Positions 8,469-20,052 of a stretch of DNA of 64,000 nucleotides are shown here, piece after piece. The DNA comes from Adhaeribacter swui (GTDB lineage Bacteria > Bacteroidota > Bacteroidia > Cytophagales > Hymenobacteraceae). The stretch's first letter is position 1, and each line of letters begins with the position of its first letter. Under the pieces are notes generated by a model. The model had not been told where the DNA came from. It ran no database searches and saw only the letters and a program-made list of their open reading frames with translations. The stretch lies in NCBI RefSeq assembly GCF_014217805.1, contig NZ_CP055156.1, positions 3,416,585 through 3,480,584 on the forward strand, given 5' to 3'. The translations under genes were made by a program, and so were the position numbers.

Positions 8469-9650
8469 CTACAAATTGGTTTTAGCCGAACTTTTTTTAT
8501 AAACCGGGTTATTAGTGCTTTTTGTTTCCGGCACAGGTTCTAAGCTTTCCGTTAAATCTACCAGCAAGGTTATTTGCGTGCCATGCCCTTTATCCGATTC
8601 AATTTTTAAATTGGTATTTAATTCGGCGGCTCTTTGGTGCATGTTGGTTAACCCGTAATTTTCGTTTACATCTACCTGAGCGGGCTCAAAACCTATGCCG
8701 TTATCCTGTATTAATAATTGTAAATGTTTATCTGCCACGGTAATTAATTGCACTGTAAAAAAATTAGCCTGACTGTACTTTATAACATTGGTTATAGCTT
8801 CCTGCGCAATCCGGAAAATGTTAAGGGTTTGTACCGGGGTAAGTAAAATGGCCTCGTTGGTCTGCGATTTAAACTGATAACGCAAATTGCCTTGCGGTGG
8901 AATTAGTTGCCAAAGTAATTTCTGCAGTTTCTCGTTTAGCTCCCCCACGCGAATATGCTCTTTGCGGATGGCCCAGATCGTTTCGCGCAATTGGGTAATG
9001 GTTTGCCGGGTATATTCCCGGAGTTGCTCTATTTGGTGTTGTTGCTCAGAGCCCTGCCACATGTTTGGCGAATCTTCCAACCGGTTTACAATATAGGTTA
9101 GGTGCGAGCCCACATTATCGTGTAAGTCGCGAGCAATCCGTTCCCGCTCTAACTGAATTTTATGATCGGTTTCGAGCTGTTTGATTTTTAATTTTAATTT
9201 CTGCTGCAGAAAATACCAATTGATTACAAATACGGTACCTAAGAACAGTAAAATAACCATTATAAAAAACCACCAAACTTTCCAGGCAGGAGAATTAATT
9301 GTAAAAACAAACCGAATAGGCTGGTTAAAAGCTGCTTTTGGATGGATAAAATAAGTTTTTTGCCCGGAATTAAAGGCTATATTTTTTATTGGTTGATTAC
9401 GAAGACTGGTAATAAGCTGATTTTTTAAGATGTAAGTTTCCGGGAGGGACTCTTTGAAGGCTTGGTCTAAATATGAGTGGCCTTGGGTGCGGATGACACT
9501 AAGCCCGGTATTTAACCAGCTAAAATCTTTAAAATTGCGGGAAACAAAGTATGCGGCAGCATTAGAAAGTTTTTTTTCAGGCTGCGCCCAGCCGCATCCT
9601 GCCTGAAAACAAAAGCTACTAATTAACCAAATTCGAAGGAGTAGATGCAT
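8469..9650 (-). CDS. sensor histidine kinase (HisKA_3 type) with shortened sensor
   Basis: The protein has 393 residues: a signal-like N-terminus (residues 1-22), a short extracytoplasmic part, one membrane helix at about 123-147 preceded by PAWKVWWF, a short coiled coil, the DHp motif ERIARDLHDNVGSHL with phospho-acceptor His177, and a HATPase domain (QEAITNVIKYS, DNGIGFEP, GHGTQITL). The segment just before the helix resembles the end of a Y_Y_Y domain, as in kinases that normally carry a large beta-propeller sensor; here that propeller is missing. The likely partner is the NarL-type regulator encoded 423 bases upstream on the same strand. Confidence 0.88.
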   Translation of the reverse strand: MHLLLRIWLISSFCFQAGCGWAQPEKKLSNAAAYFVSRNFKDFSWLNTGLSVIRTQGHSYLDQAFKESLPETYILKNQLITSLRNQPIKNIAFNSGQKTYFIHPKAAFNQPIRFVFTINSPAWKVWWFFIMVILLFLGTVFVINWYFLQQKLKLKIKQLETDHKIQLERERIARDLHDNVGSHLTYIVNRLEDSPNMWQGSEQQHQIEQLREYTRQTITQLRETIWAIRKEHIRVGELNEKLQKLLWQLIPPQGNLRYQFKSQTNEAILLTPVQTLNIFRIAQEAITNVIKYSQANFFTVQLITVADKHLQLLIQDNGIGFEPAQVDVNENYGLTNMHQRAAELNTNLKIESDKGHGTQITLLVDLTESLEPVPETKSTNNPVYKKSSAKTNL

Positions 9651-12616: not shown

Positions 12617-13349
12617 GCGTTATATCAGTATGAATGCGTATTCGGGAAGGAGCGGGTAAATGTTACCAAAGTAAAGGTATTTTCCGGATTTGTACCTGTT
12701 CCGTTTAGGTTCATTTTTTAAAAAATTACTCCGCCTACCTGAAAACAACCACTCCTGCCCCTCCTAAACTTAGGTGGGGAGTTGTTACCCCAAATAATCA
12801 ACTGAGAAATAGAAGCGGCCAGCCTATAATAACCTGTTTTACCCATTGCAACGGGTGTAACATTTTGTAACACTATTGTAACATCGGTTTCTCAATTAAA
12901 ATAATCTGCCTGATTTTTTTCGGGTTTTAATTATTAATAAACCTATCCACCCGTTTTTTAATTCTTAGTCTTTTTTTAACGGTTTAGCGCCAAGTGTCTA
13001 GAGATTATTTTTTAAATATTTTTTATTTTAATCACTTTATTATTAGTAAGTTATATTAGTAAATTCCCTTTTTTATTCTGATATAATCCTCCCGGTTTCT
13101 GCTTTAAAGATTTAAGTTTTTCGCGGTTATTACCCGCCCTTTTTGGCTGCTTTTTTTAGATTTTTTCGGGTTTAAAACCGGATGTTACAATACTAACACA
13201 AACGGTTACAATGGTGCTAACACCTGCCTGTACCCGTGCTATACCTTTGTGTCGTCTTCAAAATACTTGCAAGTAAGACGCTCCAACAAATCAATCCTTA
13301 ACGCTTTACAAAACCATTAATCAATCCAAATTTAAAACGCTAATCCATC
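12617..13349. promoter_or_regulatory. long AT-rich regulatory gap with phased TGTAACA motifs
   Basis: Three TGTAACA copies lie at 12856, 12866 and 12877, about one helical turn apart. The reverse word TGTTACAA appears at 13183-13190, with a second GTTACAAT at 13205-13212, 21 bases after the first; each of these is followed by CTAACAC (13193 and 13217). A TACCTTTG box at 13242-13249 fits the -7 consensus and would place transcription start near 13256, about 95 bases before the lipoprotein gene. The pattern looks like operators for one regulator. No open frame of note is present. Confidence 0.5.
13242..13249 (+). promoter_or_regulatory. -7 box TACCTTTG for surface-protein cluster
   Basis: TACCTTTG matches TAnnTTTG and follows the GTTACAAT/CTAACAC repeats. 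No strong TTTG is seen at -33, which would fit an activator-dependent promoter. It is correctly placed to drive 13350-15850. Confidence 0.5.
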
Positions 13350-13766
13350 ATGAAAAAAGCAACATTTTTAAAAAATCAATTAATTACATCCGTAGCCTTT
13401 TACATTATAATAGTGGGCGGACTGTTGAGCGCCTGTAAAAACGACAAAGACGAGGTAGCGCCCGCCGGAGCTTTCGCGGGTAAATACACCGCCGAAGACA
13501 GTAGCAGCGACACCTATATCATGACCATCGAGAAGAAAGAAGGCAACAAGCTGATCATCCACAATTTTGGCGGCTTTATGTACGTGCCCATTCAGGCTAC
13601 CGCCTCCGGTAACAACCTTACTATTCCGAAGCAAACCTTTAAAGAAAGCCATTTTGAATTAACCTTAAAAGGCACCGGCAATTTAGCCGGCGACAACTTA
13701 CAGATTCATTACGAAGCTTCGGGCTCTACCAATTACGAAGAAGATATCTGGGCCGTCCGGAAATAG
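13350..13766 (+). CDS. lipoprotein, 138 aa, unknown function
   Basis: The N-terminus has a charged start, a hydrophobic stretch and the lipobox LLSAC with Cys29, followed by KNDKDEV, a usual spacer after a Bacteroidota lipobox; acidic residues nearby would suit surface export. The mature domain of about 110 residues is rich in beta strands and Thr/Gly (GKYTAEDSSSDTYIMT, NLTIPKQTF), recalling small lipocalin-like or copper-resistance-type barrels found as stand-alone lipoproteins. It is the first gene after the phased regulatory region and precedes the repeat protein by 174 bases. Confidence 0.75.
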   Translation: MKKATFLKNQLITSVAFYIIIVGGLLSACKNDKDEVAPAGAFAGKYTAEDSSSDTYIMTIEKKEGNKLIIHNFGGFMYVPIQATASGNNLTIPKQTFKESHFELTLKGTGNLAGDNLQIHYEASGSTNYEEDIWAVRK

Positions 13767-13939: not shown

Positions 13940-15148
13940 ATGAAAACTATTAAAATTTTAGTTAGCGCTATGCTAACCATCCTGTTAAGCAATCATACTT
14001 CTTTTGGCCAGTATAATGTTTATTTTGCCGGTAAAAATGCGGGTGCGGTTAATACCGGCAGTTATAACTCCTTTGTGGGCTATTACTCGGGCCAGGTTAA
14101 CACCTCCGGATTTCATAATACTTTTTTCGGAGCATTAAGCGGTTATTTAAACAAGACAGGCCGCTACAATACCTTTGTGGGCAGTCAGGCCGGGGCCAAA
14201 AACGAAACCGGCGAGGGAAATAGCTTTTTCGGGATGAATGCGGGCTACATAAGCCGGGGGAGCCACAACAGTTTCTTTGGCAAAGAAGCCGGCAGCCTTA
14301 ACCAGGCCGATGGCCAAAGTTATTTTGGTTATCAGGCCGGCATGAACAATTATACCGGTTTAAGAAACAGCTTTTTCGGCGCTTATTCTGGCTACAGTAA
14401 TACCTCCGGCTCTAACAACAGCTTTTTTGGTTACGAAGCGGGTAAAGCCAATACTACCGGGGGCGATAACGTTTTCTTTGGTTACCGGGCAGGCCAGGCC
14501 AACACCTCGGGAAATTCTAACGTGTTTTTAGGCCGCGATGCCGGGCCCAATAATACCTACGGTTTAAACAACGTATTCCTGGGCCGGGAAGCCGGCTGGA
14601 AAAACACCAATGGTAGTTTTAACGTTTTTGTGGGCCGTAACGCCGGCAAAATGAATGAAACGGGCAGTAGCAACGTGTTTATCGGGAATGATGCCGGTTA
14701 CAACGAAAAAGGCTCCAGTAAACTATACATTGCCAATACCAGCACCACTACGCCTTTAATTTACGGCGAGTTTAACAACAATAAGTTAGTGGTAAATGGT
14801 TGGATGGGCATTGGTACCAACAATTCTTCCGGCGATTATAAGCTTTCGGTAAATGGTAAAATCCGGGCGAAAGGCCTGAAAGTAGAAACAGACTGGGCGG
14901 ATTTTGTTTTTGCCGATAATTATAAGTTGCGTTCGCTGGAGGAAGTTGCGGCTTATATTAAGGAGAACAAACATTTACCCGACGTGCCTTCGGAAGCCCA
15001 GGTAGCCCAAGAAGGCGTAGACTTAGGCCCGATGCAGGCCACTTTACTGCAAAAAATAGAAGAACTCACTTTGTATTTGCTGCAAGCCCACGAAGAAACC
15101 AAGCAATTGCGCCACGAAGTAGAAACCCTGAAAGCAAGTAAAAACTAG
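13940..15148 (+). CDS. secreted 17-residue-repeat (beta-solenoid-type) surface protein
   Basis: The 402-residue protein has a signal peptide (about 1-23) and then some fourteen repeats of 17 residues, from residue 26 to about 262, with the pattern N-x-F-x-G-x-x-A/S-G-x-x-N-x-T-G-x-x. The spacing of Asn, Phe and Gly suggests a regular beta-solenoid, broadly like YadA-type head repeats. After the solenoid comes GWMGIGTNN and a domain with DFVFADNYKLRSLEEV and HLPDVPS, a C-terminal module seen at the ends of many Bacteroidota tail-fibre-like proteins, then a coiled coil (about 365-400). It is probably exposed at the cell surface; whether it adheres or assembles is unknown. Confidence 0.8.
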   Translation: MKTIKILVSAMLTILLSNHTSFGQYNVYFAGKNAGAVNTGSYNSFVGYYSGQVNTSGFHNTFFGALSGYLNKTGRYNTFVGSQAGAKNETGEGNSFFGMNAGYISRGSHNSFFGKEAGSLNQADGQSYFGYQAGMNNYTGLRNSFFGAYSGYSNTSGSNNSFFGYEAGKANTTGGDNVFFGYRAGQANTSGNSNVFLGRDAGPNNTYGLNNVFLGREAGWKNTNGSFNVFVGRNAGKMNETGSSNVFIGNDAGYNEKGSSKLYIANTSTTTPLIYGEFNNNKLVVNGWMGIGTNNSSGDYKLSVNGKIRAKGLKVETDWADFVFADNYKLRSLEEVAAYIKENKHLPDVPSEAQVAQEGVDLGPMQATLLQKIEELTLYLLQAHEETKQLRHEVETLKASKN

Positions 15149-15175: not shown

Positions 15176-15850
15176 ATGAAAATACTATTTCTCTTTGTTT
15201 TACTACTTGCCGGCGCCTTGCCAATATGTGCCCAAATGCGCGCCCCGAAAGCAGCAACCGCCGAAAAACGAATTATCACTGCCACGGAAATTGCTGCGAA
15301 GAAAAAAAGCAGTCCGGCCCGTAAAAAAAGGGCTGGCGAGGCCGATGGTTCTGGCCAATATTTCCGGGCCCAGAGAGTGATTCAAACGCTGGGGCCGGTT
15401 TATTTAACCCCCGGAGAAGCTTTTACTTTTACTGCCGGCGACTCCATCGTACTTGGTCCGGGCTTTGAGGTAGATTCTACTACAGAGTTTACCGCCCAAA
15501 TATACGCTTTACCCGCCGAAACCGCTCCTGCCCCGGAACTGGCTGCTACGCCTTCTAATGCTTTAAATGCTGCAGCAGATAATACGGGAAATCTGCAAGC
15601 TTTTACCTTATTCCCGAATCCGGCCAGCGAGCAGTTTCATATTCAGTACGAAGTAAATAAAACGGCGGTGGTAAGCGTGGCGCTGTATACCCTGGAGGGG
15701 ACTCCGGTGCAGCAATTTGTAACGGCGCAACAACAAGAACCGGGTAGTTATAAGTTGGCTTTGCCGGTAACCCAGATAGCCAGCGGCGTGTACGTGGTGG
15801 CTTTAAAAATAGACAGTAAAACCATTAGCCAACGCGTGGTTATTCGCTAA
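15176..15850 (+). CDS. T9SS-sorted secreted protein
   Basis: A signal peptide (MKILFLFVLLLAGALPICAQ) is followed by a lysine-rich region (about residues 30-55), a small beta module with SIVLGPGFEVDSTTEFTAQI, a linker of Ala/Pro/Glu, and a terminal domain of about 80 residues starting FTLFPNPASEQFHI and ending QRVVIR. This end is the type A sorting domain that directs cargo through the type IX secretion system to the cell surface. The gene lies 27 bases after the repeat protein and probably shares its transcript. No catalytic domain is seen, so it is likely structural or binding. Confidence 0.88.
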   Translation: MKILFLFVLLLAGALPICAQMRAPKAATAEKRIITATEIAAKKKSSPARKKRAGEADGSGQYFRAQRVIQTLGPVYLTPGEAFTFTAGDSIVLGPGFEVDSTTEFTAQIYALPAETAPAPELAATPSNALNAAADNTGNLQAFTLFPNPASEQFHIQYEVNKTAVVSVALYTLEGTPVQQFVTAQQQEPGSYKLALPVTQIASGVYVVALKIDSKTISQRVVIR

Positions 15851-16389: not shown

Positions 16390-16749
16390 ATGGAGATTAA
16401 TTTAATACAAGCCCAGGGAGTAAATATGGCGGAAGTTACCGGCAACGGTGTAGAAATTAAAAACAACCAGGATGCTTTAGATTTAATGGCTAATTGCGGT
16501 TACCAGGGCGCCGACGGTATTATTTTGCGTGCCGAAAATATAACTCCCGATTTTTTTGATTTAAAAACCGGAATCGCCGGCGAAATTCTGCAGAAGTTTT
16601 CTACGTATAACATGAGGCTGGCCATCGTGGGCGATTTTTCTAAGTTCAGCAGCAAAAGCTTAAAAGACTTTATGTACGAGAGCAACAAAATAGGCCGGAT
16701 TAATTTTGTGGGTTCCCTGGAAGAGGCCAAAGCCAAATTAGCGAACTAA
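16390..16749 (+). CDS. DUF4180 domain-containing protein
   Basis: The 119-residue protein is a full-length DUF4180 domain: the segment ALDLMANCGYQGADGIILRAENI and the later MRLAIVGDFSKFSSKSLKDFMYES are the two conserved blocks. The fold is predicted alpha/beta and resembles STAS-like small regulators; function is unknown. There is no signal peptide, so it is cytosolic. It is preceded by a 35-base A/T-only run (16336-16370) and followed by a sensor kinase gene with about 220 bases between, so it is probably monocistronic. Confidence 0.85.
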   Translation: MEINLIQAQGVNMAEVTGNGVEIKNNQDALDLMANCGYQGADGIILRAENITPDFFDLKTGIAGEILQKFSTYNMRLAIVGDFSKFSSKSLKDFMYESNKIGRINFVGSLEEAKAKLAN

Positions 16750-16971: not shown

Positions 16972-19900
16972 ATGGTATACCTTTTACAAAGATTTACTAT
17001 TACTTATCTAATACCCGTGAAAGCTGTTATTTTATCCTGCCTGATCTGCTGTTGGTTGGTGGTATGTTTGCCGGTTTTCGCCCAGCCCGGTAAAATAGAT
17101 AGCCTCGAAAAAGTATTGGCCACAACGCGCCCCGACACTAACCGGGTAATTATTTTAAATAAATTATCGGGCCAGTACCGCTCCTGGACCAGCAATTTAG
17201 ACCAAAGCAAAGCCTTGGCCTTAGAGGGGTTGCAGCTAGCTAAAAAAATAAATTTTTTGCAAGGCATTGGTACGAGCTACACCTGTTTAGGCAATTATTA
17301 CTATAAATTAAACCAGACCCAGCCAGCCCTAAACAACTTCCGGAAAGCGCTGCACTACTATAACCAAGCCCACGACGAAAAAGGCATAGGGGTAAGCTAC
17401 TCCAACCTGGCCATGATTTACGAAGATACCGGCAACTATACCCAAGCCCTCGAATTTTATTTAAAAAGTTTAAAAATCGCCGAAGCAAGAAACGACCCGG
17501 AAGCCCAGGGCCTTATTTATAGTTACCTGGGCGTAATGCTGCAAAACCAAAAAAAATACAAACAATCGCTGGGTTATAATTTTAAAGCCATTAAACTTTT
17601 AGGTGCGGTAAATAACTTACCCAGTAAAGCTTATGCTTTAAATTGCATCGGTAATACTTACCGCGAATGGCACCAATACCAGCAAGCGGTAAATTACCTG
17701 CAACAAGCCCAGGAAATATTTGATACTTTTAAAATTGCGCGCGGGCAGGTAGGTAGTTACAATAATCTGGGCCTGGTTAATTATAGTTTAAAACAATACG
17801 ATCAAGCGTATGCCTACCACCAAAAAGCTTTAGCTATTAGCGAACCTAATCAGTTTAACAATTCCACGATAGTGGCGTTGCATGGCATGGGGGCGGTATT
17901 GCTGCAGAAAAAACAAGCCAATGCGGCTATTCCGCTGTATCAAAAATCTTTAAAAATTGCCTCCGAACACCACTTGGTACTGGATAAACTGGATGCTTAT
18001 AAGGGCTTAACGGAAGCATACGCGCAGAACCAGAATTATGCCGCGGCTTTTGCCATGCAAACCAAAGCCAGCGCTTTAAAAGATTCTATCTTTAACGACC
18101 AGAATACCCACGAAATAGCCCAGCTACAAGCCAATTACCAGGTCGAGAAAAAACAGGCCGAAATTGAATTATTAAAAAAAGACCAGCAACGCGAAGATTT
18201 AATCCGGAATATATCGCTGGCTGGGTTATTAGCTGCGCTCTTGTTCGGGGCTTTATTATACAGCCGCCAGCGTTTAAAAATTAAACAGGATAAGTTACTG
18301 GTGGCCAAAAGCAAAGAACTGGCCAGCAAAAACAAAGAATTAGCCGGTAAAAACGCACAACTAGAAGCTTTGGCCCAGGTACTAGAACTACAAGCGCAGG
18401 AACTGGAACAGCAAACTTTAAAATTGCAGGAACTCGACCAGGTAAAATCTACTTTTTTCGCCAATATTTCGCACGAATTCCGGACGCCGCTTACTATTAT
18501 TTTGGGCAGTTTGTCGGATAAAATAGTGCAACTCCGCCATCAACCGCCACCCGTGAACCTTACCCTGGAAGAAAAAGAAGTACGGGCCATACACCGCAAT
18601 GCCCAGCGTTTGCTCGAGTTAATTAATCAACTGCTGGATTTATCGAAGCTGGAATCCGGGCAATTAACGCTGCAACCCCAGGCCGGCGATTTAATGCAGT
18701 TTTTCCGGATGCTGGCAGGTTCGTTTTCGTCGTTGGCCGAGTTCCGGCGGATTAAGTTTGATTTTATTCTTCCGGAAACGCCGGCTTTTTTCCGGTTCGA
18801 TGCCGATAAACTCGAAAAGATTTTCTCGAACTTACTTTCCAATGCCTTTAAGTTTTCGCCGGACGGAGGTGAAATTCAGCTAAAAGTAGAATTGTTTGCG
18901 GTGGTACCCGGCGGTGAATGGCTCATTCGGGGGCTGGTACAGGATACCGGACCCGGCATTGCCCCGGAGCAACTCGATAAAGTATTCGAACGGTTTTACC
19001 AGGGCTCCCAAAAATACACCAGCGACCAGCAAGGAACCGGAATTGGCCTGGCTCTGGTAAAAGAACTGGTGGCTTTACACGGCGGAAAAGTCTGGGCCGA
19101 AAACAGCCCTGCCGCCGGTGCCCGCTTTATCGTGCAATTGCCCTTGCTGGAAGCCCCGGTGCAGGAGCTAGCGCCCTTTTCATTAAATCTAGCCCCGGAG
19201 TTAAACCTTGCTGCCGCTTCTGCTAAAATAGAAATAGATATTGCTCCGGAGTTGGCGGCGGCAGCGGTAACGCAACCAGAAAAACCGGTATTGTTAATTG
19301 TAGAAGATAACCTGGATTTGCGGAGTTATATCCGGAAGCACTTAGAAAACGCTTATACTGTTCTGGAAAGTGAAAACGGCAGTTTAGGTCTGCAGAAAGC
19401 CGTAAGCCAGGTGCCGGATTTAATTATCAGCGATTTAATGATGCCCGAAATGGACGGTATGGCGCTTTGCCACCACGTAAAAACCGACGAGCGTACCAGC
19501 CACATTCCGGTTATTTTACTAACGGCTCTGGCTACTCCCGAGAGCAAATTACAAGGCCTGGAAACCGGCGCCGATGATTACCTGACCAAACCTTTTAACC
19601 CCCAGGAGTTGCAAATAAGAGTGCGCAACCTGGTAGAAAGCCGGCGGAAATTACGCGAGCGCTTCGGGAAAGAAATTTGGGTAAAGCCGCAGGAAATTAC
19701 CGTATCGTCGGTAGATGAGAAATTTTTAGAGAAAGCAATAAAAGTAGTTGAAGAAAATCTGAGCGATTCCGATTTTGGAGCCGAGGAATTTAGCCGCGAA
19801 ATAGGCATGAGCCGCATGCAACTGCACCGCAAGTTAACCGCCCTTACCGGCCAAAGTACCAGTGATTTTTTGCGGAGCATGCGCCTGAAAAGAGCCGCCC

Positions 19901-20052
19901 AGTTGCTGCAAGCCCGCGCCGGCAACGTATCAGAAGTAGCTTTTGAAGTAGGCTTTAACAGCTTATCGTACTTCTCTAAATGCTTTAAAGAACAATTTCA
20001 GGTGCAACCCAACGAATACCTGGCCCAACAAGAAAAAAGTGCCTTGGCTTAA
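16972..20052 (+). CDS. hybrid sensor kinase/response regulator with TPR sensor and AraC output
   Basis: A 1026-residue one-piece two-component system. Residues 1-37 form a signal sequence; about 60-380 are six or so TPR repeats expected in the periplasm; a membrane helix is at 411-431; a coiled coil of Lys/Glu repeats runs to 490; the H-box FFANISHEFRTPLT has His501; the HATPase has NLLSNAFKFSP, DTGPGIAP and GTGIGLAL; the receiver has Asp821 in ISDLMMPEMDG; and an AraC-type HTH fills the last 110 residues. TPRs replace the beta-propeller of classical HTCS proteins, so the signal may be a peptide or protein. No obvious target operon is adjacent apart from DUF4180 upstream. Confidence 0.93.
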   Translation: MVYLLQRFTITYLIPVKAVILSCLICCWLVVCLPVFAQPGKIDSLEKVLATTRPDTNRVIILNKLSGQYRSWTSNLDQSKALALEGLQLAKKINFLQGIGTSYTCLGNYYYKLNQTQPALNNFRKALHYYNQAHDEKGIGVSYSNLAMIYEDTGNYTQALEFYLKSLKIAEARNDPEAQGLIYSYLGVMLQNQKKYKQSLGYNFKAIKLLGAVNNLPSKAYALNCIGNTYREWHQYQQAVNYLQQAQEIFDTFKIARGQVGSYNNLGLVNYSLKQYDQAYAYHQKALAISEPNQFNNSTIVALHGMGAVLLQKKQANAAIPLYQKSLKIASEHHLVLDKLDAYKGLTEAYAQNQNYAAAFAMQTKASALKDSIFNDQNTHEIAQLQANYQVEKKQAEIELLKKDQQREDLIRNISLAGLLAALLFGALLYSRQRLKIKQDKLLVAKSKELASKNKELAGKNAQLEALAQVLELQAQELEQQTLKLQELDQVKSTFFANISHEFRTPLTIILGSLSDKIVQLRHQPPPVNLTLEEKEVRAIHRNAQRLLELINQLLDLSKLESGQLTLQPQAGDLMQFFRMLAGSFSSLAEFRRIKFDFILPETPAFFRFDADKLEKIFSNLLSNAFKFSPDGGEIQLKVELFAVVPGGEWLIRGLVQDTGPGIAPEQLDKVFERFYQGSQKYTSDQQGTGIGLALVKELVALHGGKVWAENSPAAGARFIVQLPLLEAPVQELAPFSLNLAPELNLAAASAKIEIDIAPELAAAAVTQPEKPVLLIVEDNLDLRSYIRKHLENAYTVLESENGSLGLQKAVSQVPDLIISDLMMPEMDGMALCHHVKTDERTSHIPVILLTALATPESKLQGLETGADDYLTKPFNPQELQIRVRNLVESRRKLRERFGKEIWVKPQEITVSSVDEKFLEKAIKVVEENLSDSDFGAEEFSREIGMSRMQLHRKLTALTGQSTSDFLRSMRLKRAAQLLQARAGNVSEVAFEVGFNSLSYFSKCFKEQFQVQPNEYLAQQEKSALA

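Follow-up and report, generated by a model that had tools for sequence, protein, structure and literature searches.

A predicted 21-bp direct-repeat operator and its putative HTCS regulator at a surface-protein locus of Adhaeribacter swui

RESULTS

Gene content of the locus

Within the window, by which we mean the whole 64-kb stretch of DNA analysed, five ORFs follow one another on the forward strand downstream of the gap examined here. The first gene past the promoter encodes a putative lipoprotein of 138 aa (13350-13766, +), a label given on visual inspection of its start, which resembles a signal peptide and contains a cysteine. It is followed by a 402-aa protein composed of ~17-residue repeats and a non-repetitive C-terminal part (13940-15148, +), a T9SS cargo protein with a 3-coathanger stack domain and a type A sorting domain (15176-15850, +; PF18962, TIGR04183, NF045639), a DUF4180 protein that is a putative cluster member (16390-16749, +; PF13788) and a TPR-type hybrid two-component regulator (HTCS, in which sensor, kinase, receiver and AraC-type parts form one protein) of 1026 aa (16972-20052, +). 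Neither the lipoprotein nor the repeat protein had a Pfam or NCBIfam match, and no paralogue of the repeat protein was found in its own genome; profile matches to the lipoprotein occurred in 22 of the 390 genomes of the order, its own included. Between 11900 and 17000, Rfam returned no match at the gathering threshold.

Assignment of the HTCS rests on Pfam, hydrophobicity and comparison of its HTH. TPR_12, HisKA, HATPase_c, Response_reg and HTH_18 were found in one chain, the domain composition of the HTCS class, and hydrophobic spans at residues 7-42 and ~410-432 (Kyte-Doolittle windows) predict membrane anchoring. The sensor part comprises a signal and the TPR region, and the first helix of the AraC-type HTH, MSRMQLHRKL, is encoded from 19807. 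The gene lies 3.7 kb downstream of the operator described below and on the same strand, placing this regulator beside the target locus, and no such operator was found before the HTCS gene itself. Pfam matches to SusC or SusD, on which an assignment to polysaccharide use would rest, were absent from the five ORFs tested between 13350 and 20052; a SusC/SusD pair is the usual HTCS target and not a requirement for DNA binding.

Two arrays of a 21-bp repeat flank an AT-rich spacer

The array nearer to the lipoprotein gene, proximal operator R (13183-13224, +), contains the half-sites TGTTACA (13183-13189) and GGTTACA (13204-13210) with a period of 21 bp. Each is followed by a second box, CTAACAC at 13193-13199 after the first and GTGCTAAC at 13214-13221 after the second; the longer words read TGTTACAATACTAACAC from 13183 and GGTTACAATGGTGCTAACACC from 13204, with GTTACAATGGTGCTAACAC beginning at 13205. 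The 21-base spacing given for these words in the preliminary description is confirmed. Downstream, TACCTTTG (13242-13249, +) fits TAnnTTTG, the -7 box consensus (PMC7366714), and is the predicted promoter element of the lipoprotein/repeat-protein/T9SS cluster. It begins 38 bp past the first base of the second half-site of R. No TTTG-type -33 box was seen by eye before TACCTTTG; the second half-site covers the expected place, and we therefore read R as a class-II-like activator site.

Distal operator L (12843-12883, -) starts 300 bp upstream of R in inverted orientation, with TGTTACA half-sites at 12883-12877 and 12862-12856, again 21 bp apart, and an additional middle copy at 12872-12866. The spacer between the arrays (12884-13182) is AT-rich, as first described, with 28% GC over 12890-13180 versus 43% for the 64-kb window; its length is 299 bp, not the 350 originally given. 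In the TGTAACA reading from which the analysis began, the copies are real, lying on the + strand at 12856, 12866 and 12877 and on the - strand at 13183.

The repeated words are real, and their arrangement is not random. An explanation by chance, as clustering of an AT-rich word, could draw on the total number of TGTAACA copies in the window, which matches the shuffled mean (six copies, four of them in this region, against 6.9), and on the absence of an own-genome excess of 21-bp pairs when two mismatches are allowed (see below). However, when the 571-bp gap was shuffled 4000 times, a 21-bp TGTTACA pair with at most one mismatch arose once and two pairs never, against the two observed, and the pairs are conserved in a second species and recur across the order while the reversed pattern does not, making chance a barely credible explanation.

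The repeat is confined to one locus

A TGTAACA-N2-5-TGTAACA search of the 6.2-Mb genome returned two overlapping matches, both at this locus, and none for the reversed control; the expectation that such phased words would turn up at a random rate in other gaps was thus not borne out. The perfect repeat TGTTACA-N14-TGTTACA occurs once in the genome, at L, and R is among five one-mismatch sites, while GTTACAAT-N4-12-CTAACAC has a single match, R itself. At up to two mismatches the genome contains 49 pairs versus 46 for the reversed pattern. A large genome-wide regulon was considered and rejected for lack of an excess at this stringency. In a second species of the genus (G006), three perfect repeats all fall within 2.5 kb of this same locus (3258745-3261234), two one-mismatch sites lie elsewhere, and the count at up to two mismatches is 84 versus 55 reversed, a number of the matches resembling a dispersed GGTTACAGGTTGCA-type repeat. 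Confinement of the word to one locus suggests that its regulator is encoded in that locus.

As a separate observation, two-mismatch matches in both genomes include a dispersed GTTACAGGTTGCAAGTTACA-like repeat, copies of which lie in the own genome (C3) at about 614143, 2120911, 2358073, 2601884, 3377904 and 5446826.

The 21-bp period, not one-turn phasing, is conserved in a relative

The G006 lipoprotein is 78% identical to that of the window, and alignment of the two gaps revealed a conserved block at each end and a diverged middle, the spacer not being conserved. In the left block TGTTACA is retained at the two outer positions only, without the middle copy; in the right block both half-sites are kept, with TGTTACA in both. 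The one-turn spacing proposed earlier is accordingly present in the window, where the three words of L are 10 and 11 bp apart, but its middle word at 12866 is lost in G006. From this comparison the conserved spacing is 21 bp, or two turns, and the conserved architecture is the direct repeat TGTTACA-N14-KGTTACA. The starts of L and R are separated by 300 bp in the window and by 316 bp in G006, a difference of ~1.5 helical turns; therefore, the phasing between the arrays is not conserved.

G006 has a third operator on the other side of an HTCS remnant, before a gene for a 287-aa protein present in one of eight genomes of the genus, with the same repeat and TAGTTTTG at +38. The cluster itself (L012:8501-10696) has decayed in G006 while all three operators are intact: the lipoprotein reading frame is interrupted by a stop close to its start, the repeat protein is shortened, only a TPR fragment is left of the HTCS, and the T9SS cargo gene has no match in the decayed cluster. 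The best receiver-AraC match elsewhere in G006 is 51% identical. Because the lipoprotein and repeat genes are broken there too, we read the intact operators lacking a full HTCS as a sign of recent decay, although another regulator could hold the sites. The two species also differ upstream, where the NarL-paired kinase (8469-9650, -) has 393 aa in the window versus 1009 aa in G006; the window protein matches only near the start and at the kinase end of its counterpart, most of the sensor part being missing.

The inverted orientation of L and R raises the alternative that they are terminal inverted repeats of a mobile element of ~350 bp, and an inverted-repeat search did return arms of 40 nt, 75% complementary and 275 nt apart. 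We consider this very unlikely: the genome holds no second copy of such an element, which does not fit a MITE, and the sole other DNA match to the gap is a 41-bp stretch from the AT-rich middle. Moreover, relative to G006 it is the interior that has diverged and the ends that are conserved, and in other families the right end is found by itself, again at a fixed distance from a -7 box.

L was also considered as a divergent promoter and rejected, no TAnnTTTG box being found in the 390-400 bp downstream of L on its strand in either the window or G006. A scan of 12 stretches for a second 21-bp pair (at most one mismatch) found one in four, namely the window, G006, G109 (L195) and G040 (L191). The second pair of G040 has the same orientation as the operator, stands 352 bp upstream of it and lacks a TAnnTTTG box of its own, and that of G109 stands before another gene; G088, G305 and the other six stretches have a single pair only. 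L is likely an auxiliary operator, and looping between L and R may occur.

Repeat and -7 box recur beside HTCS genes across the order

We searched the 390 genomes of the order with the pattern TGTTACA-N14-KGTTACA-N30-32-TANNTTTG, which allows 37-39 bp between the second half-site and the box. Fourteen matches were found in ten genomes and none with the reversed pattern. Four were already known (the window, G006 twice and G088) and ten were new, of which seven lie less than 1 kb from an HTCS gene (G040 L191, G121 L192, G272 L193, the first G109 site L195, G252 L197, G179 L198 and G305 L199) and one further, the second G109 site, within 5 kb. If a density of 30 HTCSs per 6.5 Mb is assumed, the chance of seven of ten being adjacent is ~1e-9. 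Overall, 10 of the 14 have an HTCS within 5 kb, the two in G006 have the remnant only, and two have no fitting HTCS: around G272 L194 no HTCS match was found in 18 kb (this site shares TGTTACATATTT with the other G272 site), and at G252 L196 the nearest HTCS is 7 kb away and has a different helix. Separately, L196:8153-8629 contains a near copy of the L197 operator together with a shortened copy of its downstream gene, on another contig of the same genome.

Judged from match lengths, the distance from the second half-site to the box is 38 bp for eight of the 14 matches and 37 bp for the other six; the +38 spacing is shared with G006 (two promoters), G088, G040, G109 (two) and G305. This recurrence bears on a reading of the TGTAACA words as -35 elements of an ECF sigma factor promoter. 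Although ECF -35 boxes often contain AAC, the words here are paired at 21 bp, and it is the pairs together with a primary-sigma box, TAnnTTTG at +37/+38, that recur, against none reversed, so that an ECF promoter is very improbable.

A somewhat less remote, still unlikely, alternative is that the sites are bound by another response regulator, either the NarL-type regulator encoded with its kinase at 10748-8469 or an OmpR/PhoB-type protein recognizing 7-bp words every 10-11 bp. The former is 79% conserved in G006, a species with a longer version of the kinase (1009 aa) and a broken HTCS, and a NarL-type protein (32%) is found near a TPR-HTCS at G040 L043, a locus with a different operator word; the latter would suit the three words of the left array. 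Against the one-turn arrangement, however, G006 lacks the middle word, and in neither species does R have a TGTTACA at a one-turn position. Against NarL, the only NarL matches in nine regions around pattern matches (at L196 and L199) sit inside HTCS receiver domains, and most of the sensor part that the G006 kinase has is gone from the paired kinase of the window.

The same module occurs in another family and may serve other targets

In G088, a member of another family, the HTCS gene is followed in turn by the operator, the lipoprotein-family gene, a gene for a 222-aa protein, genes for two repeat proteins and a T9SS cargo gene. Its operator is TGTTACATTTGTGTTCAAAGTTGTTACATCTGTGTTAGCC with a -7 box at +38, and its HTCS is 46% identical to that of the window overall and 64% over the receiver and AraC part; the relation of the lipoproteins was detected by profile (E 5e-11) and missed by single-sequence tblastn. 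Homologues of the repeat protein are found near the G088 and G040 L191 operators. Elsewhere in G040 an HTCS directly precedes a lipoprotein homologue; the repeats there read TGTTCCA, and TAGTTTTG stands at +38. A scan of 29 lipoprotein-family loci showed a 21-bp repeat before a TAnnTTTG box at 6 and none at the other 23; at one of the six, L144, the repeat does not resemble TGTTACA, and the surrounding 16 kb gave no HTCS match.

The HTCS closest to that of the window over the receiver and AraC part (71%) is that of G305. The operator beside it precedes short peptides matching a class I lanthipeptide leader model below cut-off. Further on are a protein resembling a LanM C terminus, a thiopeptide-type biosynthesis protein and a peptide-export ABC protein; of these, only the thiopeptide-type one scores above its cut-off, the ABC protein falling short of those of the specific models. 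The region, L199:451-9141, may be a lanthipeptide-type cluster under HTCS control.

Operators of this word accompany HTCSs with one recognition helix

The nine distinct HTCSs nearest to the matches, including that of the window, all carry SRMQLHRKL as the first AraC recognition helix, while their HTHs are 44-78% identical to that of the window. This helix was present in none of seven other aligned HTCSs of the order (L043, L044, L046, the own paralogues L138 and L139, and the farther ones at match loci, L196 and the second at L199, the last of which is 4 kb from the operator) and in 2 of 45 receiver-AraC proteins sampled through the receiver domain. The 45 come from 80 loci, being those whose match reaches at least residue 164 of the 171-residue query, so that an HTH follows, with the other 35 set aside; the tails of 15 of the 45 were inspected by eye, and selection was by receiver match irrespective of the kinase part. 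Fisher p values for the nine HTCSs are 9e-5 versus the seven and 1e-8 versus the 45, which kinship makes too favourable; with only the five more distant HTCSs versus the seven, the value is 0.0013.

One of the two SRMQLHRKL proteins in the sample (L201) has a perfect repeat 120 bp before the HTCS gene with TACCTTTA at +37 (spacing by eye), and the other (L204) has no TGTTACA pair in its 15-kb locus. Among the 43 proteins lacking the helix, perfect pairs are absent, and the flanks of three (L218, L226 and L231) contain a one-mismatch pair; for perfect pairs with versus without the helix, Fisher p is 0.044.

Different helices were found with different words. SRQHLLRKI accompanies the TGTTCCA repeats of G040 L044, and SRVQLHRKL of G040 L043 is encoded between 21-bp repeats on both sides of the gene, with TGCAACA as the proximal and TGAAGCA and TGGAACA as the upstream words. 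The repeats of this latter TPR-type HTCS, at L043:5989 and L043:9845, have the proximal half-site TGCAACAT[CT]TGTGTTC and are each followed by a TAnnTTTG box; the protein encoded next is of 197 aa in one case and, in the other, a TonB-receptor-like protein (label by eye) of 921 aa. An HTCS of G052 that is 47% identical has a different helix, and no 20-22-bp repeat was found in the G052 stretches searched.

DISCUSSION

The preliminary description had proposed a multi-site operator for the lipoprotein/17-residue-repeat/T9SS cluster; comparison among genomes supports this, with the unit refined to a 21-bp direct repeat whose distance to the -7 box is fixed. We propose that R is an activator operator of class-II geometry for the HTCS encoded at 16972-20052 and that L is a second, inverted site; from sequence comparison we give this reading as a whole a probability of about 0.82. 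By analogy with HTCS biology, a stimulus on the periplasmic TPR sensor would lead to phosphotransfer to the receiver and thereby free the AraC-type domain. The receiver is described as restraining the HTCS DNA-binding domain, with its recognition helix sequestered, until this restraint is relieved (PMC11253607). Two AraC-type domains would then bind the 21-bp direct repeat head-to-tail; TGTTACA would presumably be read by helix 1 (SRMQLHRKL) and the GTGYTAAC box by the second HTH. With the proximal half-site in place of the -33 element, RNA polymerase would be recruited to the -7 box TACCTTTG, from which the lipoprotein, repeat protein and T9SS cargo gene would be transcribed. L would be an inverted site for the same regulator 300 bp upstream, probably with an auxiliary role.

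A more general and decidedly tentative proposal is that of a portable HTCS code, in which SRMQLHRKL would specify TGTTACA for any sensor and any targets, be they T9SS surface proteins or a lanthipeptide-type cluster, with a -7 box 37-38 bp from the proximal half-site, and in which a distal operator, inverted in the window and same-sense in G040, would let the regulator hold or loop the promoter at the membrane.

Bacteroidota encode numerous HTCSs, for many of which neither an operator nor a signal is known; in B. thetaiotaomicron, 16 of the 36 have a predicted motif (PMC3878776). A match between helix and word, combined with a fixed distance to the -7 box, would allow operators to be predicted from protein sequence. 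HTCS control would also no longer be confined to glycan use but would include secreted surface proteins and, for one relative, a lanthipeptide-type cluster. Among the titles and abstract openings surveyed, none announced a match between helix and word or a distal operator of an HTCS. These two, the latter in its inverted form, appear to be the fresh parts of this work, 21-bp direct repeats of HTCSs having been published already.

Three known systems invite comparison. Regulators of the OmpR/PhoB type bind tandem 7-bp boxes one helical turn apart, an arrangement that the left array of the window resembles, but only the two-turn spacing is conserved here. AraC binds head-to-tail half-sites ~21 bp apart at araI1-I2, the proximal one lying over the -33/-35 region, and has a distant extra site at araO2. 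The operators of the window share with it the 21-bp head-to-tail half-sites, the proximal position over the -33 place and the distant site; unlike the membrane-anchored protein predicted here, AraC is soluble and sugar-binding, and the distal site of the window is a full inverted repeat. The third system is that of the operators of Bacteroides HTCSs, for which Ravcheev et al. (2013; PMC3878776) describe predicted motifs as direct repeats with an average of 21 bp between sites, bound as dimers on one face of the DNA. Shared with these are the ~21-bp direct repeat near the targets, the union of kinase, receiver and AraC-type domain in one chain, and a regulator encoded in the same locus. By contrast, the target here is a lipoprotein/repeat-protein/T9SS cluster lacking a SusC/SusD pair, the sensor is of the TPR type, and a second, inverted operator lies 300 bp upstream. 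Most likely, the locus holds a membrane-anchored sensor-regulator switch of a known kind, in which helix and word can here be matched across distant bacteria.
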